DNA of 45,958 nt, taken from positions 1-45,958 of the forward strand of contig CAMBSX010000003.1 of assembly GCA_945870655.1 (NCBI GenBank), in the 5' to 3' direction. Position numbers and translations under genes: made by a program. Shown here piece after piece: positions 11,192-18,541 of this stretch. The notes under the pieces were generated by a model. That model saw only the letters and a program-made list of their open reading frames with translations. It was not told where the DNA came from and ran no database searches. Within the stretch, counting starts at the first letter, position 1. The number at the start of each line of letters is the position of its first letter. Source of the DNA: Chthoniobacter flavus (GTDB lineage Bacteria; Verrucomicrobiota; Verrucomicrobiia; Chthoniobacterales; JACTMZ01).

Positions 11192-12202
11192 ATGGAAGTA
11201 GAGGGAAAAGAAAAGCTCTCCCCCTCCGATCTCTCAACCCTCAATCCTCAACCCCCGACTCGCCTCGCGCTGCCTGCGGCTTTCGCGAGGGAGACAGCGC
11301 GGCTCGCGGGCGAGGCCAATCTCTACCTCGGCACCTCGTCGTGGAAATACGAGGGCTGGATCGGGCAAGTCTACGACGCGCAGCGCTACCTCACGCGCGG
11401 CAAACTCTCCACCCGCCGATTCGAGAGCGAGTGCCTTGAAGAATACGCCGACACCTTTCCGACTGTCTGCGTCGATGCCGGCTACTACCGTTTTCCCTCC
11501 GATAAATTCCTCGCGGGGCTTTGCGCGCAAGTTCCCGACCATTTCCGGCTGAGTTACAAAGTGACCGACGAAATCACGGTGAAAAAATTTCCCAAGCTCG
11601 AGCGCTTCGGCGACCGCGCCGGAACGGACAACACGCACTTCCTCGACGCCAAACTTTTCGTCGACGCCTTCCTCGGACCGCTCTCACCCCACCGCCGGAA
11701 AACCGGCGTGCTCATCTTCGAGTTCTCCACGTTTTATCCCACGCACTTCGAGCGCCTGCGCGACTTCATCGCCGTGCTGGATGATTTTCTCGGACAACTC
11801 CCCACCGACTGGCAATACGGCGTCGAGGTGCGCAACGCCAAGCTGCTCCGCGCGGAATACTTCGACGTCCTTCGTACCCACAATGTCACCCACGTCTTCA
11901 ACAGCTGGACCAAAATGCCGCCGGTCGAGGAACAGATGGTCCTGCCCGGGGCCTTCACCGCCGATTTCTACGCCGCCCGCTTTCTCCTCCGCCCCGGCCG
12001 CGCCTACCAGCAAGCCGTCGATAGCTTCCAGCCCTACCGCGAGACCAAAGACGCCAGCCCCGAAGCCCGCACCGCGATCAAAAGTCTCATCCAGCGCAGC
12101 AAGACATCGCCCACCCGGCGCCCCAGCTACCTCTTCGTCAACAACCGCCTCGAAGGAAACTCCCCCAACACCCTCGCCGCCGCGCTCGACTTGGTAAGCT
12201 GA
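11192..12202 (+). CDS. DUF72 (YecE-like) family protein
   Basis: NLYLGTSSWKYEGWIGQVY..., VEVRNAKLLRAEYFDVLRTHNVTHVFNSW..., YLFVNNRLEGNSPNTLAAAL; DUF72-type TIM-barrel pattern. N-terminus uncertain. Confidence 0.85.
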   Translation: MEVEGKEKLSPSDLSTLNPQPPTRLALPAAFARETARLAGEANLYLGTSSWKYEGWIGQVYDAQRYLTRGKLSTRRFESECLEEYADTFPTVCVDAGYYRFPSDKFLAGLCAQVPDHFRLSYKVTDEITVKKFPKLERFGDRAGTDNTHFLDAKLFVDAFLGPLSPHRRKTGVLIFEFSTFYPTHFERLRDFIAVLDDFLGQLPTDWQYGVEVRNAKLLRAEYFDVLRTHNVTHVFNSWTKMPPVEEQMVLPGAFTADFYAARFLLRPGRAYQQAVDSFQPYRETKDASPEARTAIKSLIQRSKTSPTRRPSYLFVNNRLEGNSPNTLAAALDLVS

Positions 12203-12301: not shown

Positions 12302-13150
12302 CTATGGCTTGTCTTTTTCTTTGGCCATCAGGAAACGCAACGCCACCGGCAAGCGCTTGGCCCAGGCCTTTTCGTTGTGCTCGTCGCCCTCGCCCGGATT
12401 CCACAGCAAATCCTCCCCCTCCACATACCCCTGTTCCAATAAAGCCCCACGCACCGCCAACACATCCTCCCAGTAATCCCCCGAGAGATTCCCTCGCTCC
12501 TTCGTCCCCATATCCAGGTAAATCCGCAACCCGTCCTTCTTGGCCCCCTCCATCACCGCCTTGGTAAAATTCGGACTCGTCCAGAATGCCGGCGAGAAAA
12601 CCCCCACCGCCCCGAACGCCTCCGTATTCAGTCCGAGCCAAAGCGAAACCACCCCGCCCATCGACGCGCCCGCCACGGCAGTGTTTTCGCGGTCCGGCAA
12701 GGTCCGGTATTTCGCATCGATGCCCGACTTGACTTTCCCGACCAAGAAATTCGCATAGCGATTGCAAACGCCATCCCCTCGCCGGGGATCTCGTGGATTG
12801 GAGTCGGCCGGCGGTTGGTATTCGGTCATGCGCGCCTTGCCCATGTCCGCCTCATTATTCGGAACGGCCACCAAGATGGCCTCCCCCATCCGCCCAGCCT
12901 TGATTTCCGCTAATGCCGCATCCTCGGCAAACCAGCATCCGAACGGCCCACCCGGACGGAACACATTCTGCCCGTCATGGAAATAGAGCACCGGATACCT
13001 CTCGTCCCCCGTGTTATAGTCCGGCGGCAGCCACACGCGCACCTCCCGCGAAGGAATCAGAGGGTCGTCCGACTCGATGAATACCGTTTCCATCCGCCCG
13101 CCCGCCCAGGCATTCACAACCAAGAAAAGCAACATCTGAAGCACCACCAT
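12302..13150 (-). CDS. Secreted alpha/beta-hydrolase esterase (esterase D/Fes-like)
   Basis: Signal-like N-terminus, REVRVWLPPDYNTGDERYPVLYFHDGQNVF, nucleophile elbow VAGASMGGVVSL, C-terminal EGDEHNEKAWAKRLPVALRFL. Confidence 0.88.
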   Translation of the reverse strand: MVVLQMLLFLVVNAWAGGRMETVFIESDDPLIPSREVRVWLPPDYNTGDERYPVLYFHDGQNVFRPGGPFGCWFAEDAALAEIKAGRMGEAILVAVPNNEADMGKARMTEYQPPADSNPRDPRRGDGVCNRYANFLVGKVKSGIDAKYRTLPDRENTAVAGASMGGVVSLWLGLNTEAFGAVGVFSPAFWTSPNFTKAVMEGAKKDGLRIYLDMGTKERGNLSGDYWEDVLAVRGALLEQGYVEGEDLLWNPGEGDEHNEKAWAKRLPVALRFLMAKEKDKP

Positions 13151-13201
13151 CACCGGCCAGAGCCGTTTCCTAAGCCCCTCCCAAAGCTTCCCCGCCGCAG
13201 A

Positions 13202-13253
13202 GCCCGCTGGCCTCTCCAAGCCGTATGGCTCCACGAGCAAGAGGCCAGCGGGC
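13202..13253. repeat. Perfect 14-bp inverted repeat (hairpin)
   Basis: GCCCGCTGGCCTCT (13202-13215) and AGAGGCCAGCGGGC (13240-13253) with a 24-nt loop, between the DyP stop and the esterase start. Confidence 0.8.
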
Positions 13254-13376
13254 CGTGGCAAAAGTCTGACTCGAAAACTCAATTCCTCTCTCTGCCCTCC
13301 CCATCACCTCCGGTCAATCCGGATCGCACGCAAAAGCAGAAAGTCTGCCGCGGTTCACCGCGCCTCACGACCCACC

Positions 13377-14705
13377 TCAATGCGGGCCGAGGCGTTCCAC
13401 CATCCAGCGCAAGCCGCCGAGTCCCGGCAGGAAAAGGTGCTCCCCCCCGCGGGTCTGCGAGAAAGCAGCCAGCCCCTTGTAACGGTGTCGCGGACGCGGG
13501 ACCGCGAATTCGTCAGAGCGGTCACGGCGCCCGGCAATCGGGTCGGATCGCTCACCTTGGGAAATGAAGTCCCCATCGTTGATCCATTGCGACTGCACAA
13601 ACTCAAACTGACGACCCGGGTTGGCGTTGATGATGGCGAGGACAAGCCCCCGATCAACCCCATCGTCCTCGGTCACGCCCTCGGGGAGCACAGGACCATA
13701 GGCCGAGCCACGGCGGAGAAGCCGGTGCAGACGCATGTCGACCACGGTTCCATCAAGTGCATCGCGCGGGTTGACGCGGCGGATGTGGCAACCGGGCGCC
13801 GTACGGTCGCCATCCGGATCCTCAGTACGGAAACTAAAGTCGTTGTTTCTCATCGGATCCTTGGCAATTTCCGGGTCATCTTTTTCCGGTGAGAGCGCCA
13901 TAGGACATCCGCTCCGCCACCGCCCCATCATTTGCGCCGCAACCAATTCCCGACCGTCGGAGGTTTCCGCATTGTCACGGAGAAAGCGGCGGAAAGCCGC
14001 GACGTCCTGATGGATCTTGCGCAAGGAAATGTAGGTGCTGTTCCGCCAAAAATCTTCCGGTCCTGGCCCCGAAGCAATCACTCCGAGTTCGTTTTCATAG
14101 CCGAGCACGAACTCTCCGGCTTTGGCCACCGGTTGCCCCGGCAACGGGTCGCCTCCCTGACCCTCGATGTATGGACGGGAAATGCCGTCGACAAAACCAA
14201 AGTGCTCGCGGCCGGTCGGCGGCAAGCCGACATCAAGCCGGTTGACTGTACGCACCCCCCCCAAGCCGGCCACCGCCTCGCGACCGATGGCGGCCTTTGC
14301 GTCGCGCAACTCCGGCGAGCCCGCCATGATGAGCAAGCCGATGTCCAGCCCGTTGCCTCCATGCGGCATGTCCCAGTGCGACGGGTCGTTGAGGCCGACA
14401 TCACCGAGGAATTCCTTACGCGCCGCCATACCTTGGATGAATTCGCGCGGGAACCCGTCCAGGATTTCGCGAGGCAGGCCAAGCTTGCGGAGGCCTTCCC
14501 AGGAAAAAGTTGCGTTGATCCACGCATTCTCGGGCGGCGCATCCCAGTTAGCCGCGGGAGTTATGTGCGGAAGCAGGCGCTTGATCAGTGTGATGGCGTT
14601 TCCTGCATCGTCGATCGTGAAAACATAGTACGTGCCGAAATACGGCATCGGCCTCGAACGGAGGACGGTGCCCTGGATATCTTCCAGCTCAAGTTCAACC
14701 GCCAT
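13377..14705 (-). CDS. DyP-type heme peroxidase
   Basis: 442 aa; GXXDG motif HFGFVDGISRP, candidate proximal His (SLRKIHQDVAAFRRFL), candidate distal Arg region (NPGRQFEFVQSQWINDGDF). Confidence 0.93.
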   Translation of the reverse strand: MAVELELEDIQGTVLRSRPMPYFGTYYVFTIDDAGNAITLIKRLLPHITPAANWDAPPENAWINATFSWEGLRKLGLPREILDGFPREFIQGMAARKEFLGDVGLNDPSHWDMPHGGNGLDIGLLIMAGSPELRDAKAAIGREAVAGLGGVRTVNRLDVGLPPTGREHFGFVDGISRPYIEGQGGDPLPGQPVAKAGEFVLGYENELGVIASGPGPEDFWRNSTYISLRKIHQDVAAFRRFLRDNAETSDGRELVAAQMMGRWRSGCPMALSPEKDDPEIAKDPMRNNDFSFRTEDPDGDRTAPGCHIRRVNPRDALDGTVVDMRLHRLLRRGSAYGPVLPEGVTEDDGVDRGLVLAIINANPGRQFEFVQSQWINDGDFISQGERSDPIAGRRDRSDEFAVPRPRHRYKGLAAFSQTRGGEHLFLPGLGGLRWMVERLGPH

Positions 14706-14721
14706 GGCAGTTGCTCCGGCG

Positions 14722-15237
14722 TCAGTTGGCCGCGTCGAGCATCTCGTTGACCGCCTCGGAGAGGCGCCGCATCTTGGCGATGTCCTTGATCGTCAGGTCA
14801 GGGTTGGCCGCATAGAAGGCATCCGCCGTGTAAGCCTGCCGCTCGATAAGCTTGGCTGTCGCCGGGTCTGCCGCACAGGTGAATCCCTCCCAAACCCCGG
14901 GCATGAGCAGATCAAACCACGGGCCGGCCTGGGTCACGACGTCTTGCAGATAGGGCACAAAATCCCCGTCGTAGACGGCAGAAACAAGAATGCGCGTGTC
15001 GTTGTCGAAGAGGATGACGCGGAAGTCATGGACCGTGCCAATCCGCTTCTCCCAATAGCCGGCTTCGGCTTGGAAACGGGCGATGCGGTCGCGGAAAAGT
15101 TTGCCGCCTCCCGGCACCACGTTGCCGATGACATGGATCTCGCCGCGCTTGCCGATCCGCTTGCCCGGACCGTCGGGCTGGTTGGAGGAGGGCTGGGTTA
15201 GCGCTGCTTTTTCCGGGGAGATATCAAGGTTGCTCAT
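14722..15237 (-). CDS. Small alpha/beta protein of a peroxidase cluster, uncharacterised
   Basis: 171 aa; GEIHVIGNVVPGGGKLFRDRIARF...IGTVHDFRVILFDNDTRILVSAVYDGDFVPYLQDVVTQAGPWFDLL; lies 16 bp upstream of the DyP gene. Confidence 0.7.
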   Translation of the reverse strand: MSNLDISPEKAALTQPSSNQPDGPGKRIGKRGEIHVIGNVVPGGGKLFRDRIARFQAEAGYWEKRIGTVHDFRVILFDNDTRILVSAVYDGDFVPYLQDVVTQAGPWFDLLMPGVWEGFTCAADPATAKLIERQAYTADAFYAANPDLTIKDIAKMRRLSEAVNEMLDAAN

Positions 15238-15270
15238 AAGTTGTGGTTGTGGTGGTTGGGTTTTCCGGCT

Positions 15271-15648
15271 TCAGGCCGAAGGAAAGGGCTTCGTGGCGAT
15301 AAACTCGCGCTGCTCGCAGATGCGGCCATCGCGCCAGGTGCAAACCACACCGAGCAGTGCGCTGAGCTTTTCGCCGGCGAGCGATATTCCAGTGGTCAGC
15401 GCGACCGAGCAGGTGCGCGTTCCCGCGGCATCAGAAAAAAGCTGCAGGTAGGGATCGATATGGATGAGATTGTCCGGATACTCGCGACAAAAGGCCTGCC
15501 CCCGCCGGAGGTGCTCCTCAAGATCGTGCGGTGCGGTATCCGCATCCATCCACCCACGGAAGTCGGGCGCGAAATGCGCCCTGTAGTCATCCCAACGGCG
15601 CTCGTTCCAAGCTACGTCCACCGCGCGCATTTTGTCGGCTAGGCTCAT
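15271..15648 (-). CDS. NTF2/SnoaL-like protein
   Basis: MSLADKMRAVDVAWNERRWDDYRAHFAPDFRGWMDADTAPHDLEEHLRRGQAFCREYPDN...; ATGA overlap with the catalase-like gene. Confidence 0.8.
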   Translation of the reverse strand: MSLADKMRAVDVAWNERRWDDYRAHFAPDFRGWMDADTAPHDLEEHLRRGQAFCREYPDNLIHIDPYLQLFSDAAGTRTCSVALTTGISLAGEKLSALLGVVCTWRDGRICEQREFIATKPFPSA

Positions 15649-16637
15649 TGCCCGGCGCCGGCGATGGCGGCAAAAGGACAGGATTTCCATCCCCCGGTTC
15701 TTTGCGCGGCGGAGACTTCGTAAATACCCCGCCGGATCTGCAGGATCGGATCGTCAGTGGCCTCGATGCCGTCGGTCAGAACAGTCGGATCGTGGTTCAT
15801 CACAAGGTCGCCGATTTCCGCTTCGGTGGTCGGCGCCACCACGCGCAGGCGGCCAACCGTCTCCCGCCGACGGCCTTCGGGCCACAGGGCGGTTGCGTCG
15901 TTGATCGGGTCTCCCGGTTCGGCAAACTCGAGGACAAGGTCCCACTCGACCGGACCTTGCGCCACTTGGGCTTCAAGATCATTGAAGAGAACCTCAGCGT
16001 CTTCGGCTGACAGTTCTTTGACCTCCCTAAATCGGACGCCGGCCACCGGTTCCCAGTGGCAGCGCACCACGGTCTCCGTCCCATCCTCGGCAATCCACCG
16101 GAAGGCATGCACGGCATGGAAGGCGCACCAAGGAAAGCCCGCGGGCGCGGGGGTCTGGGAACGCATCTGCAAGACGGCCGCCGTGTTCGGGTTCCGGGCA
16201 ACAAAGGCCATCAACCCTTCCTTGTTCATTGGCCCGCCGGGCGCGAGGGGCAACGCGGCTTCGAGAATGCCGTGCAATTGCTCCAAGGAATTCACCACGA
16301 AAAGCAGTTGGCTGAGCATGACCAGATTCGTTACCCGGCCATTGGGAAGGTAAAAGCGGACCGCCATGCCGACCGTGTTCCCGAAATGGGCAAAAGGGTC
16401 GCCACCGCCCTTGGAGACACGCACGGTAACGGGAACCTCGTCGCCCTGCAGATGGACAGCCCGGGTATATTTTCGGGCGTTCTCGTTGGCCCGGAAGAAA
16501 CCGCGGAACATCCGTCCATCGGCATGAAGGGCGCGGTAACCTTGGAAGTTACCCAGGACAGCGCGGATGTTTTGGACCAGCTCCTCTGCGTCATCGTATT
16601 GGCTGGCGTGCATGATGTAGAGCGACCGAAACGGCAT
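15645..16637 (-). CDS. SrpA-like mini-catalase / catalase-family heme peroxidase
   Basis: 330 aa; RALHADGRMFRGFF (catalase distal HAxG-like), VRVSKGGGDPFAHFGNTVGMAVRFYLPNG, C-terminal TDGIEATDDPILQIRRGIYEVSAAQR (RxxxY proximal-Tyr-like). Confidence 0.87.
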   Translation of the reverse strand: MPFRSLYIMHASQYDDAEELVQNIRAVLGNFQGYRALHADGRMFRGFFRANENARKYTRAVHLQGDEVPVTVRVSKGGGDPFAHFGNTVGMAVRFYLPNGRVTNLVMLSQLLFVVNSLEQLHGILEAALPLAPGGPMNKEGLMAFVARNPNTAAVLQMRSQTPAPAGFPWCAFHAVHAFRWIAEDGTETVVRCHWEPVAGVRFREVKELSAEDAEVLFNDLEAQVAQGPVEWDLVLEFAEPGDPINDATALWPEGRRRETVGRLRVVAPTTEAEIGDLVMNHDPTVLTDGIEATDDPILQIRRGIYEVSAAQRTGGWKSCPFAAIAGAGQ

Positions 16638-17010
16638 GATATGGGACGCGCTCGCACAAGCAAGAGAAGAAACGTCTCATGCCACTCCCAAATCCTCTTG
16701 GCAAAACCTAATCCCGGTCACTGCCTTGCCCGGTGCGCCTTCGAATTTGCTCTCGCTTTGGTCCGACGCCTCCGAAGCGAATTCAGTCGCCGCGTTCGGC
16801 GGATTCCACGATCAAACCCCCGAGCCAAAACCCCGACCGACCAAGCGCGAAGCGGAAATCCTCCGCTGGGCGGCCGAAGGCAACGCCGAGATCGCGACCA
16901 GCCTTGCTTTGAGAGCCCATACGGTCCGCAACCGTCTGGAGAATATCCTCGTCAAATTTAAGGTGGAAACACGGACCGCCGCGGCTGCGGCACTGCACCC
17001 ACCGGAATAA
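16636..17010 (+). CDS. LuxR-type HTH protein lacking an obvious sensor domain
   Basis: C-terminal PTKREAEILRWAAEGNAEIATSLALRAHTVRNRLENILVKFKVETRTAAAAAL; start uncertain because its ATG overlaps the divergent catalase ATG. Confidence 0.7.
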   Translation: MIWDALAQAREETSHATPKSSWQNLIPVTALPGAPSNLLSLWSDASEANSVAAFGGFHDQTPEPKPRPTKREAEILRWAAEGNAEIATSLALRAHTVRNRLENILVKFKVETRTAAAAALHPPE

Positions 17011-17041
17011 ATTCCGAGCCGACCGCAAAAAGCAGCCGGGG

Positions 17042-17503
17042 TCAGGCCCGCGCCGGAGCAGCCAGAGCAATCTCCGTTGCCACGAAGGACTTGAAGTCGG
17101 CCTCGTAAAGTGTGTCGGAAGCAATCCGCTCCCACGCCTGGCGGAACGCCGGTTTGGCCAGCGCATCATGCATTCCGAGACGCCACAGATTCCACATGCC
17201 CTCGTCGAAATAACCGCGGCGGTGTAGATACCACTCCTCCAGACACATGCCGAAATACGTCCGCATCACACGCATGATCGCACCCGCATCGTCGCGTCCT
17301 TCCAGGCAAAAGGCCGGATCATGGACCTCTTCCGGCAACCGCTCCATCACCTCGAGGAAGCGACGCGAATGGTCCCCGAAATGCTCGACCGCCAACTGCA
17401 CGCGCAACACGCCCAACTGCCTCCACAGCGCATAGCCTGCGACAAGAACGCTGAGGATCGTGGCCAGACTTCCGCCCACACCCAGCCAATCAGTAACAGT
17501 CAT
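17042..17503 (-). CDS. Single-TM hypothetical protein
   Basis: MTVTDWLGVGGSLATILSVLVAGYALWRQLGVLRVQLAVEHFGDHSRRFLEVMERLPEE...; DUF4760-like overall pattern, not confirmed. Confidence 0.65.
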   Translation of the reverse strand: MTVTDWLGVGGSLATILSVLVAGYALWRQLGVLRVQLAVEHFGDHSRRFLEVMERLPEEVHDPAFCLEGRDDAGAIMRVMRTYFGMCLEEWYLHRRGYFDEGMWNLWRLGMHDALAKPAFRQAWERIASDTLYEADFKSFVATEIALAAPARA

Positions 17504-17656
17504 AAGTTGAAGAATAGAGACAAACTCACGCGCCATGCCTACGCGAGAAAGGGCCATCTTCCAAGCCTCGCGGTCGGGACGAGTCGGCCCTCAGGTCCGG
17601 ACTCTCAAGCGAAGGACGGCTGCAACGCAAAAGATTGACCTCTTCGGTCTCTCCGC

Positions 17657-18541
17657 GTGCCATCACTCCTCATGAACCCGTGGATCCTCGCCGCCCGACC
17701 GCGCACCTTGGGTGCCGCGATCATCCCCGTGCTTGCCGGAGGCGCTTTGGCCATTTCGGTCAGCGCGTTTGATCCGTTGGTTTCCGCGCTCATCCTCGCC
17801 TGCGCCGTCCTCATCCAGATCGCGACCAACTTTTTCAATGACGCGATCGACCACGTCAAAGGCGCCGACACCCCCGGGCGACTCGGCCCGATCCGCGTCA
17901 CCTCGACCGGACTCCTCCCCGCGCGTCAGGTCATGACCGGCGCGGTTCTCACCATAGCGCTCGCCGCCCTCCTCGCCACCCCTCTTGTTCTCCGCGGCGG
18001 CGGGATCATTCTTCTTATCGGCATCCTCTCGCTGTTCTTCGCCTATGCTTACACCGGCGGCCCTTTTCCCTTGGCCTACCTCGGACTCGGCGAAATTTTC
18101 GTCATCCTCTTCTTCGGCCTCATTGCCGTGGCCGGCACTTTTTATCTCAACACCCTCGCCTTCTCCGTGGCCGCAGTTTTGGCTGGATTGCAAATCGGAC
18201 TGCACTCGAGCGTGCTGCTCGCGGTCAATAATCTCCGCGACCTCGAGACCGACCGCGCAGCGAACAAGAAAACTCTGGCTGCCCGGTTCGGGCTCACTTT
18301 TGCCCGCCGCGAAAACGCCGCGCTGATCATCACCCCTTTCGTACTCGGCCTCGCGTGGCTTCCGCTCGGTTATCTTTGGGCCTTCCTCCTCCCGCTTCTT
18401 ACCCTACCCCTGGCCTGGTGGCTGGCCTGCGCCTGCCTCAAGGCTGCGCCCGCGCGCGAAACCAACCAACTTCTTGCCCAAGCCGCCGCATTGCACGCCG
18501 CGTTCGGACTCCTCCTTGCTCTCGCTTTCCTCCTGCCGTGA
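17657..18541 (+). CDS. menA: UbiA-family prenyltransferase, probable 1,4-dihydroxy-2-naphthoate octaprenyltransferase
   Basis: NFFNDAIDHVKGADTPGRLGPIRVTSTGLL (UbiA Asp-rich motif) and NNLRDLETDRAANKKTLAARFG; multi-TM; followed by menC. Confidence 0.92.
   Translation: MPSLLMNPWILAARPRTLGAAIIPVLAGGALAISVSAFDPLVSALILACAVLIQIATNFFNDAIDHVKGADTPGRLGPIRVTSTGLLPARQVMTGAVLTIALAALLATPLVLRGGGIILLIGILSLFFAYAYTGGPFPLAYLGLGEIFVILFFGLIAVAGTFYLNTLAFSVAAVLAGLQIGLHSSVLLAVNNLRDLETDRAANKKTLAARFGLTFARRENAALIITPFVLGLAWLPLGYLWAFLLPLLTLPLAWWLACACLKAAPARETNQLLAQAAALHAAFGLLLALAFLLP

Follow-up and report, generated by a model that had tools for sequence, protein, structure and literature searches.

The closest solved relative of the DyP peroxidase analysed here is DrDyP of Deinococcus radiodurans, the product of DR_A0145, the gene being 100% identical to PDB entry 8re3. 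DrDyP is inactive above pH 4 and has a low-spin heme; the paper on its structure leaves the trigger as its closing question, namely how the heme is freed of the hydroxide locking it (PMC10820274). The DrDyP gene has an x171-family gene, presumably DR_A0144, immediately upstream and a catalase-like gene immediately downstream. In the open-licence literature on this locus the DyP and the catalase are handled as separate enzymes and the upstream gene is unmentioned; no paper linking a DyP, a catalase and a third gene was found among open-licence papers.

Several other described systems come close. Mini-catalases of the MAP-2744c (3e4w/3e4y) and SrpA-like type consist of a minimal catalase core with RxxHAxG and RxxxY motifs. 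In the catalase-related allene oxide synthase (cAOS) and hydroperoxide lyase (cHPL) of corals and in catalase-LOX fusions the catalase fold acts on fatty-acid hydroperoxides and works together with another oxidising enzyme (PMC5617202, PMC11719350). Fungal LDS/PPO is a heme dioxygenase-P450 fusion in which a heme peroxidase-type domain is joined to a P450 (PMC4420034). In DyP-encapsulin systems the DyP has a dedicated partner protein.

The locus described here shares with that of DrDyP the DyP class (about 45% identity over 97%) and the side-by-side arrangement of x171, DyP and catalase-fold genes. In D. radiodurans, however, the catalase-fold gene is last, there is no SnoaL gene, and the locus adjoins a 3-hydroxyacyl-CoA dehydrogenase and a TetR gene. 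The catalase-like protein has the same 330-aa core and motifs as MAP-2744c, and both are without Asn at the canonical distal position, but it is encoded together with x171 and a DyP. Unlike the coral systems, the locus has no lipoxygenase, its second enzyme is a DyP, and the distal Asn retained by cAOS is missing. The LDS/PPO layout is matched by bacterial DyP-P450 and P450-x171-DyP fusions, although the peroxidase superfamily differs. As in the encapsulin systems a DyP has a partner, but x171 is not an HK97-fold shell protein; its model predicts a small ferredoxin-like domain. The favoured reading, given a probability of roughly 0.6 as a whole, is that the locus is a copy of a mobile peroxidase module with a class C/V DyP and x171 as its core, to which a catalase-fold heme protein is usually added.

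The four-gene locus and its island

The window, the whole stretch of DNA that was analysed, is 45,958 nucleotides long and comes from a lake bacterium. Its relevant features are as follows.

13377-14705, minus strand: DyP, 442 aa, core enzyme; TIGR01413 E 3e-25; 8re3/8re2 E 1e-120
14722-15237, minus strand: x171, 171 aa, single-domain, unnamed family; beside the DyP or in one chain with it at 51 loci
15271-15648, minus strand: SnoaL/NTF2-like protein, 125 aa, optional member; SnoaL_2 E 1.2e-5
15645-16637, minus strand: catalase-fold heme protein, MAP-2744c-like, 330 aa, usual third member; PF00199 E 1e-20
16636-17010, plus strand: divergent remnant of a LuxR-family regulator gene; GerE HTH E 1e-9
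17042-17557, minus strand: second 171-aa hypothetical protein, unrelated to x171, island cargo; hydrophobic N-terminal segment
13124-17625 (approximate), no strand: island missing from congener G442 (L123), delimited by the borders of the G442 match and a dS contrast

The order, lengths, overlap and gaps of the four minus-strand genes given in the preliminary description agree exactly with the coordinates. The catalase-like stop and the SnoaL-like start overlap in ATGA, and the gaps from SnoaL-like to x171 and from x171 to DyP are 33 bp and 16 bp. An upstream ATG at 15690 is an alternative start that would extend the SnoaL-like protein to 139 aa. The motifs named for the heme enzymes were likewise all found: R35xxH38AxG and R302xxxY306 in the catalase-like protein, GFVDG and proximal H307 in the DyP. 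The four genes are evidently real and under purifying selection, with dN/dS values against the sister genome of 0.09 (DyP), 0.04 (x171), 0.07 (SnoaL) and 0.04 (catalase-like). A sigma-70 promoter scan gave no match.

Genome comparison places the four genes on a horizontally acquired island of ~4.5 kb that is lacking in the congener. The G442 match to the window runs to 13123 and resumes at 17626, ~100 bp separating its two parts, and dS to genome G444 is 0.12-0.20 within the island vs 0.25-0.47 outside. The GC content of the cassette (0.618 vs 0.62-0.63) is uninformative as a sign of transfer. The second 171-aa hypothetical has an island-like dS of 0.155 and a dN/dS of 0.083, and has no match in Pfam. 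A search of five island proteins with PADLOC for an anti-phage defence system gave no match.

The divergent LuxR-HTH ORF noted earlier exists, but it is an internally deleted remnant and not a working regulator. Its counterpart in the sister genome is an intact 311-aa ORF (GerE E 4e-18), compared with which ~150 internal codons, and another 2 within the HTH, are missing from the window copy. The two copies are 81-84% identical; the island neighbours are ~95% identical. As such a remnant, and not an intact sensor-plus-HTH protein, the ORF was rejected as regulator of the operon.

The x171 family and its DyP

The product of 13377-14705 is a class C/V DyP, for which heme binding and peroxidase activity are predicted. 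It has the GXXDG motif, the proximal His/distal Arg pair and full-length likeness to a class C/V structure, DrDyP, its best PDB match (residues 3-437). GFVDG spans residues 170-174; the catalytic Asp, D173, is kept in 54/54 aligned relatives, and H307 and distal R331 in all 53 aligned relatives having a residue there. The domain scores (DyP_N PF21105 E 1e-5 and the TIGR01413 value above) are below the curated cut-offs, as they are for the other scored members of the class. An EfeB deferrochelatase identity was rejected (TIGR01412 equivalog, 21/428 bits).

x171 and its family have no sequence match in Pfam, NCBIfam or PDB, searched with the single sequence and with a profile. An AF2 model of low confidence (pLDDT 67-69) has a beta-alpha-beta-beta-alpha order that would fit the ferredoxin-like beta-alpha-beta-beta-alpha-beta topology. 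Foldseek with this model retrieved dimeric alpha+beta barrel proteins, the best being 2omo (E 8e-4). Conserved positions of the family include D78 and the YDGD and Y96 of a YDGDxxxY motif. Duplication of the DyP N-terminal domain was considered as an origin of x171; the profile comparison was negative.

The two families travel together. Among 289 alphaproteobacterial genomes, x171 is present in 9 and this DyP class in the identical 9 (Fisher 3e-17). Among 210 genomes of the window's own order, 16 have x171, 17 have the DyP and 14 have both (Fisher 3e-17). The link is to one DyP class, because ~20 further alphaproteobacterial genomes with other DyP-family matches are without x171. The genes are neighbours, their order being conserved, or fused in the 51 loci, which span eight phyla; four proteins carry x171 and DyP in one chain (L095, L100, L112 and L113), L112 with a P450 domain as well. 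The mirror-tree correlation of the two families is 0.77, and 0/2000 permutations were equally high. The DyPs of L105 and L107 are counterexamples, having no x171 despite intact upstream sequence. The catalase-fold protein joins the pair in 33/51 loci and is missing from 18.

As judged from these loci, x171 and the DyP are the conserved core. That x171 is a never-named family accompanying class C/V DyPs is a well-supported conclusion of the gene comparisons. The preliminary description had made co-occurrence in other genomes decisive for its claim, and the identical four-gene order does recur, in Planctomycetota and Chitinophagales MAGs and in Agrobacterium, Rhizobium and Terrarubrum; the catalase-fold/x171/DyP triad reaches wider, into many phyla. 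Terrarubrum and Agrobacterium leguminum are cultured carriers of the cassette. The description had also included the SnoaL protein in its four-gene system. As part of the core this protein was rejected: SnoaL homologues occur only in the seven closest loci (L002/L075, L003, L005, L006, L008, L009), and the gene is an optional extra of one clade. The window protein itself scores slightly under the gathering cut-offs (PF12680/PF07366; 26.3/27 and 24.4/28.4 bits).

In the favoured reading x171 would be an obligate partner of the DyP, an adapter or gate. It is quite probable, on sequence grounds, that x171 and its DyP bind each other and that the DyP depends on x171 for its function. When studied by themselves, class C/V DyPs are able to act on dyes at acidic pH; catalysis may therefore not require a partner. 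A tentative extension is that x171 serves as a gate to the DyP heme or supplies the substrate, and in this way lifts the hydroxide-ligated low-spin state in which DrDyP is found when purified alone. x171 may thus be the missing partner that enables otherwise inactive DyPs.

The catalase-fold protein and the possible chemistry

The best PDB match of the catalase-like protein is 3e4w (E 1e-47; the next is 7e-19). As a catalase core without C-terminal extensions, nearest to MAP-2744c, it belongs with the mini-catalases. Of the marks of a monofunctional heme catalase it keeps proximal R302/Y306 and distal R35/H38, but the position of bovine N148, the distal Asn, is S109. The R-x3-Y heme ligand is kept in 33/33 catalase-fold relatives; the distal Asn is present in 13 and lost in 20, and the distal His is lost in 9, which form one branch.

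Within the module this protein would convert hydroperoxides rather than work as a catalase, and the DyP would oxidise either the resulting product or a co-substrate. In the window clade, SnoaL would serve as a small accessory of pocket or cyclase type. The module is given slightly less than an even chance of converting organic hydroperoxides, those of unsaturated fatty acids being the likeliest. Lipid-type genes (oleate hydratase, 3-hydroxyacyl-CoA dehydrogenase, acyl-CoA thioesterase, patatin, P450) lie beside triads in Alphaproteobacteria, Deinococcus, Acinetobacter and Verrucomicrobiota; they differ between loci, are noted as raw occurrences, and none lies beside the window copy. A candidate fatty-acid dioxygenase neighbour at L067, a RoxA/MauG-like cytochrome with a GMC oxidoreductase, is not used as evidence, because sequence searches of PDB gave no match for it and both genes also occur together on rhizobial plasmids that have no DyP.

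The broadest form of the favoured reading is a doubtful one. Here x171 would found a family of dedicated class C/V DyP partner subunits and, with the repurposed catalase-fold enzyme, form a widespread bacterial oxylipin-type pathway on lipid hydroperoxides, the neutral-pH inactivity of purified class C DyPs reflecting the missing partner. If true, a family absent from Pfam and NCBIfam would gain a name and a role, and two heme enzymes whose present annotation is that of stress proteins would fall into one pathway. On the natural substrates and activation of DyPs, the x171 family offers a concrete, testable answer.

Alternative readings

The four genes could instead be a generic oxidative-stress operon, in which the two heme enzymes clear H2O2 as well as organic peroxides, x171 and SnoaL being minor stress proteins that happen to be co-transcribed. 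The DR_A0145 and DR_A0146 proteins increase together under UVC/vacuum (PMC5731708), which also counts for the favoured reading, the dra0146 transcript is reduced in a mutant of the CRP regulator DR0997 (PMC4868304), and KatG and Fur genes adjoin the Granulicella locus. DR_A0146, however, scavenges H2O2 less well than KatE1 (PMC7143949). Moreover, x171 follows the DyP and not catalases, and the catalase-fold partner loses residues of the distal pocket. The earlier proposal of a dedicated pathway or complex, as opposed to generic H2O2 defence, stands to this extent, the x171/DyP fusions and the distal Asn and His losses appearing to favour it. The stress operon is considered unlikely.

Somewhat less likely still is that x171 delivers heme to the DyP and catalase-fold proteins or helps them to mature, handling heme as other dimeric alpha+beta barrel proteins such as HemQ and IsdG do. 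HemQ is among the weaker Foldseek matches of the low-confidence model, x171 is present at loci with one or two heme enzymes, and hemA genes flank the Sinorhizobium locus. Against this, no His, Cys or Tyr heme ligand is kept across the x171 family except Y96, within the YDGDxxxY motif, and DrDyP takes up heme when produced without x171 (PMC10820274).

The least probable is that the module tailors a small molecule, for instance an aromatic polyketide or another secondary metabolite, the product being modified by SnoaL/ABM-like proteins, P450s and peroxidases: the SnoaL member, the ABM/SnoaB folds matched by the x171 model and the adjacent or fused P450s would fit it, but no scaffold-making enzyme (PKS, NRPS, terpene synthase) lies in any neighbourhood examined, and the surroundings of the module are unrelated from case to case, with plasmid copies elsewhere and a 1 kb intergenic slot in the window.

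The island and its four peroxidase genes

The window carries four closely packed genes on the minus strand, with an ATGA overlap followed by gaps of 33 and 16 bp, as given in the preliminary description. A divergent ORF lies next to them.

16637-15645 (-), catalase-like protein
15648-15271 (-), SnoaL-like protein
15237-14722 (-), 171-aa protein; its family is called x171
14705-13377 (-), class C/V dye-decolorizing peroxidase (DyP)
16636-17010, remnant of a LuxR-family regulator, 124-aa ORF, internally deleted
L002 5182-6117 (-), LuxR-family regulator in the sister genome G444, 311-aa ORF, GerE E 4e-18

By homology, both peroxidase family assignments were borne out. The catalase-like protein has a PF00199 match (E 1e-20) and MAP-2744c (3e4w, E 1e-47) as its nearest solved structure; for the DyP the nearest is D. 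radiodurans DrDyP (8re3/8re2, E 1e-120) over its whole length. The SnoaL-like protein scores slightly below the Pfam cut-off, and the 171-aa protein matched no model in Pfam or NCBIfam. The ORF described as a divergent LuxR-HTH gene exists but is the remnant of a 311-aa regulator, intact copies of which are found elsewhere (G444). Relative to the G444 copy it lacks ~150 internal codons and two HTH codons, and it is 81-84% identical to that copy as compared to ~95% for its island neighbours.

Searches of the genus used the DUF72-like (11192-12202) and MenA (17657-18541) genes on either side of the region. In a congener, G442, these genes are ~1.06 kb apart; its DNA aligns to the window through 13123 and resumes at 17626, with only ~100 bp between. 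Among the 11 genomes of the genus searched, the 171-aa gene was found only in the window's own genome and G444. In a comparison of this pair, five island genes (DyP, x171, SnoaL, catalase-like and the second 171-aa gene) have a dS of 0.12-0.20 and the flanking genes 0.25-0.47, which places the movement of the island after the split of the two lineages. The same island genes show dN/dS of 0.04-0.09, in the purifying range. In the DyP tree, the window copy branches with copies from alphaproteobacterial plasmids and from other MAGs, and not with the other triads (x171, DyP and catalase-fold gene) of its own order. Together, the empty slot in G442, the low dS, the dN/dS and the DyP grouping say that the island is a functional unit acquired horizontally.

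The esterase-MenA slot (13124-17625; L123, L126, L127) seems to serve as a cargo site within the genus, being empty in G442 and holding other ORFs in G443 and G439. The second 171-aa protein (17042-17557, minus strand), which travels with the island, is unnamed, unrelated to x171 and has a hydrophobic N-terminus.

Linkage of x171 to DyP

A neighbourhood search from the 171-aa protein, as had been proposed, found a DyP gene adjoining it in every neighbourhood first opened, usually with a catalase-family gene. Approached from the DyP side, x171 lies upstream in Deinococcus, Streptomyces, Rhodococcus, Acinetobacter, Bradyrhizobium, Nostoc and Granulicella. Its homologues occur in genomes and on 28 plasmids. 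Among 289 alphaproteobacterial genomes, x171 is present in nine and the window-type DyP in the identical nine; ~20 others have other DyP-family matches and no x171. In the 210 genomes of the window's own order, x171 is found in 16, DyP in 17 and both in 14. Four of the five mismatches fall at contig ends (G561, G500, G552, G407), and in G500, an x171-only case, the start of a DyP is visible there. Fisher's test gave 3e-17 for each genome set, a value that measures strength of association rather than exact probability since the genomes are related. The x171 and DyP tree distances correlate at 0.77 (0 of 2000 permutations as high), partly from shared ancestry.

Across 51 loci holding both, x171 and DyP are adjacent or form a single polypeptide, with three variations: the order DyP-x171-catalase (L011), one intervening gene (L023), and an intervening second x171-like gene that is divergent (L097). 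Two DyPs with intact upstream sequence have no x171 beside them (L105, L107). A catalase-fold gene is included in 33 of the 51. Eight phyla are represented: Verrucomicrobiota, Planctomycetota, Bacteroidota, Pseudomonadota, Deinococcota, Actinomycetota, Cyanobacteriota and Acidobacteriota, the Planctomycetota and Bacteroidota assignments being based on MAG titles. An unnamed ~340-aa family common to Streptomyces and Nostoc (L023 3950-4963, L026 6350-7390) adjoins x171-DyP in loci that lack a catalase-fold gene.

x171 and DyP share a single open frame in L095, L100, L112 and L113. That fusion occurs in both orders is strong evidence of a reaction or complex in common.

Fusions of DyP involving P450 or P450-like segments (all Alphaproteobacteria)
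L112 3217-7488, P450-x171-DyP fusion, P450 domain detected
L099 710-3733, DyP-P450 fusion, P450 domain detected; a separate x171 gene precedes
L100 7926-11534, x171-DyP frame, P450-like C-terminus after DyP, by eye only
L107 5685-9614, large DyP fusion without x171, P450-like C-terminus by eye

In a Chitinophagales MAG, the gene for a GST-P450 protein (L103 5300-7393) immediately precedes those for a tandem x171 and a DyP.

Features of x171 and the catalase-fold partner

A profile built from 22 sequences over the 138-residue core picked up distant x171 members. Three architectures occur in the family: one domain (~150-250 aa), two domains in tandem (288 aa), or two in tandem separated by a hydrophobic segment (~420-435 aa). 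The core consensus is (G)TxHdxRxvxFDnDTRxlfxxxYDGDwdxYxxD...YxaxPxlTvxD, in which Y96 is invariant and R73, D78, D90, G91 and P146 are almost so. All six sequences of the window's own clade have the same N-terminal stretch, NQPDGPGKRIGKRGE.

AlphaFold2 with a six-sequence input predicted a beta-alpha-beta-beta-alpha arrangement with further helices (pLDDT 67 full length, 69 trimmed). In Foldseek the model scores best against dimeric alpha+beta barrel proteins (2omo, E 8e-4; LsrG, PA0709, WhiE-ORFI, rhamnose mutarotase). A ferredoxin-like fold is also used by DyPs (PMC4835899), and the x171 and DyP profiles gave no sequence match. The likeness to these proteins and to DyP is a lead, and would be at the fold level only.

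The catalytic Asp, His and Arg of the DyP are conserved across essentially all of the 54 DyPs aligned. All 33 catalase-fold partners retain the proximal Arg-x3-Tyr, but in the window clade Ser takes the place of the distal Asn, and nine own-order triads (L061-L067, L070, L071) have Asn instead of the distal His. Coral allene oxide synthase keeps both distal residues and yet has little action on H2O2 (PMC5617202). In view of this and the distal losses, "catalase-fold heme protein" is a better name than "catalase". In the same nine triads x171 is a tandem pair whose domains are separated by a hydrophobic segment.

DrDyP and a proposed mechanism

Purified DrDyP (DR_A0145) at pH 7.5 has a hydroxide-ligated low-spin heme and its activity is near nil above pH 4; its authors ask for a trigger and mention possible partner proteins (PMC10820274). 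In the D. radiodurans locus (L022) an x171 gene precedes the DrDyP gene and a catalase-family gene comes after. UVC/vacuum raises both the DyP and the catalase DR_A0146 (PMC5731708), the latter being a weaker H2O2 scavenger than KatE1 (PMC7143949). We regard x171 as a widespread partner family of a known enzyme class, unrecognised in the open-licence literature, and not as a new enzyme class; it bears on the trigger that the DrDyP authors ask about (PMC10820274).

We propose, from co-occurrence, gene order and fusion, that x171 is a partner that binds DyP; it may then either open the heme site or carry substrate. The catalase-fold protein may handle an organic hydroperoxide. This hydroperoxide would most likely come from lipid, since triads in several lineages have genes for oleate hydratase, 3-hydroxyacyl-CoA dehydrogenase, acyl-CoA thioesterase, patatin and P450 as neighbours. 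None of these adjoins the window copy, and the lipid step is only a lead.

A ~714-aa RoxA/MauG-like cytochrome c is encoded upstream of own-order triads (L067 11939-15998, L064 3337-5502, L070 1965-4130). In L067 it adjoins a GMC oxidoreductase, and the same pair occurs on rhizobial plasmids without DyP (L110, L111).
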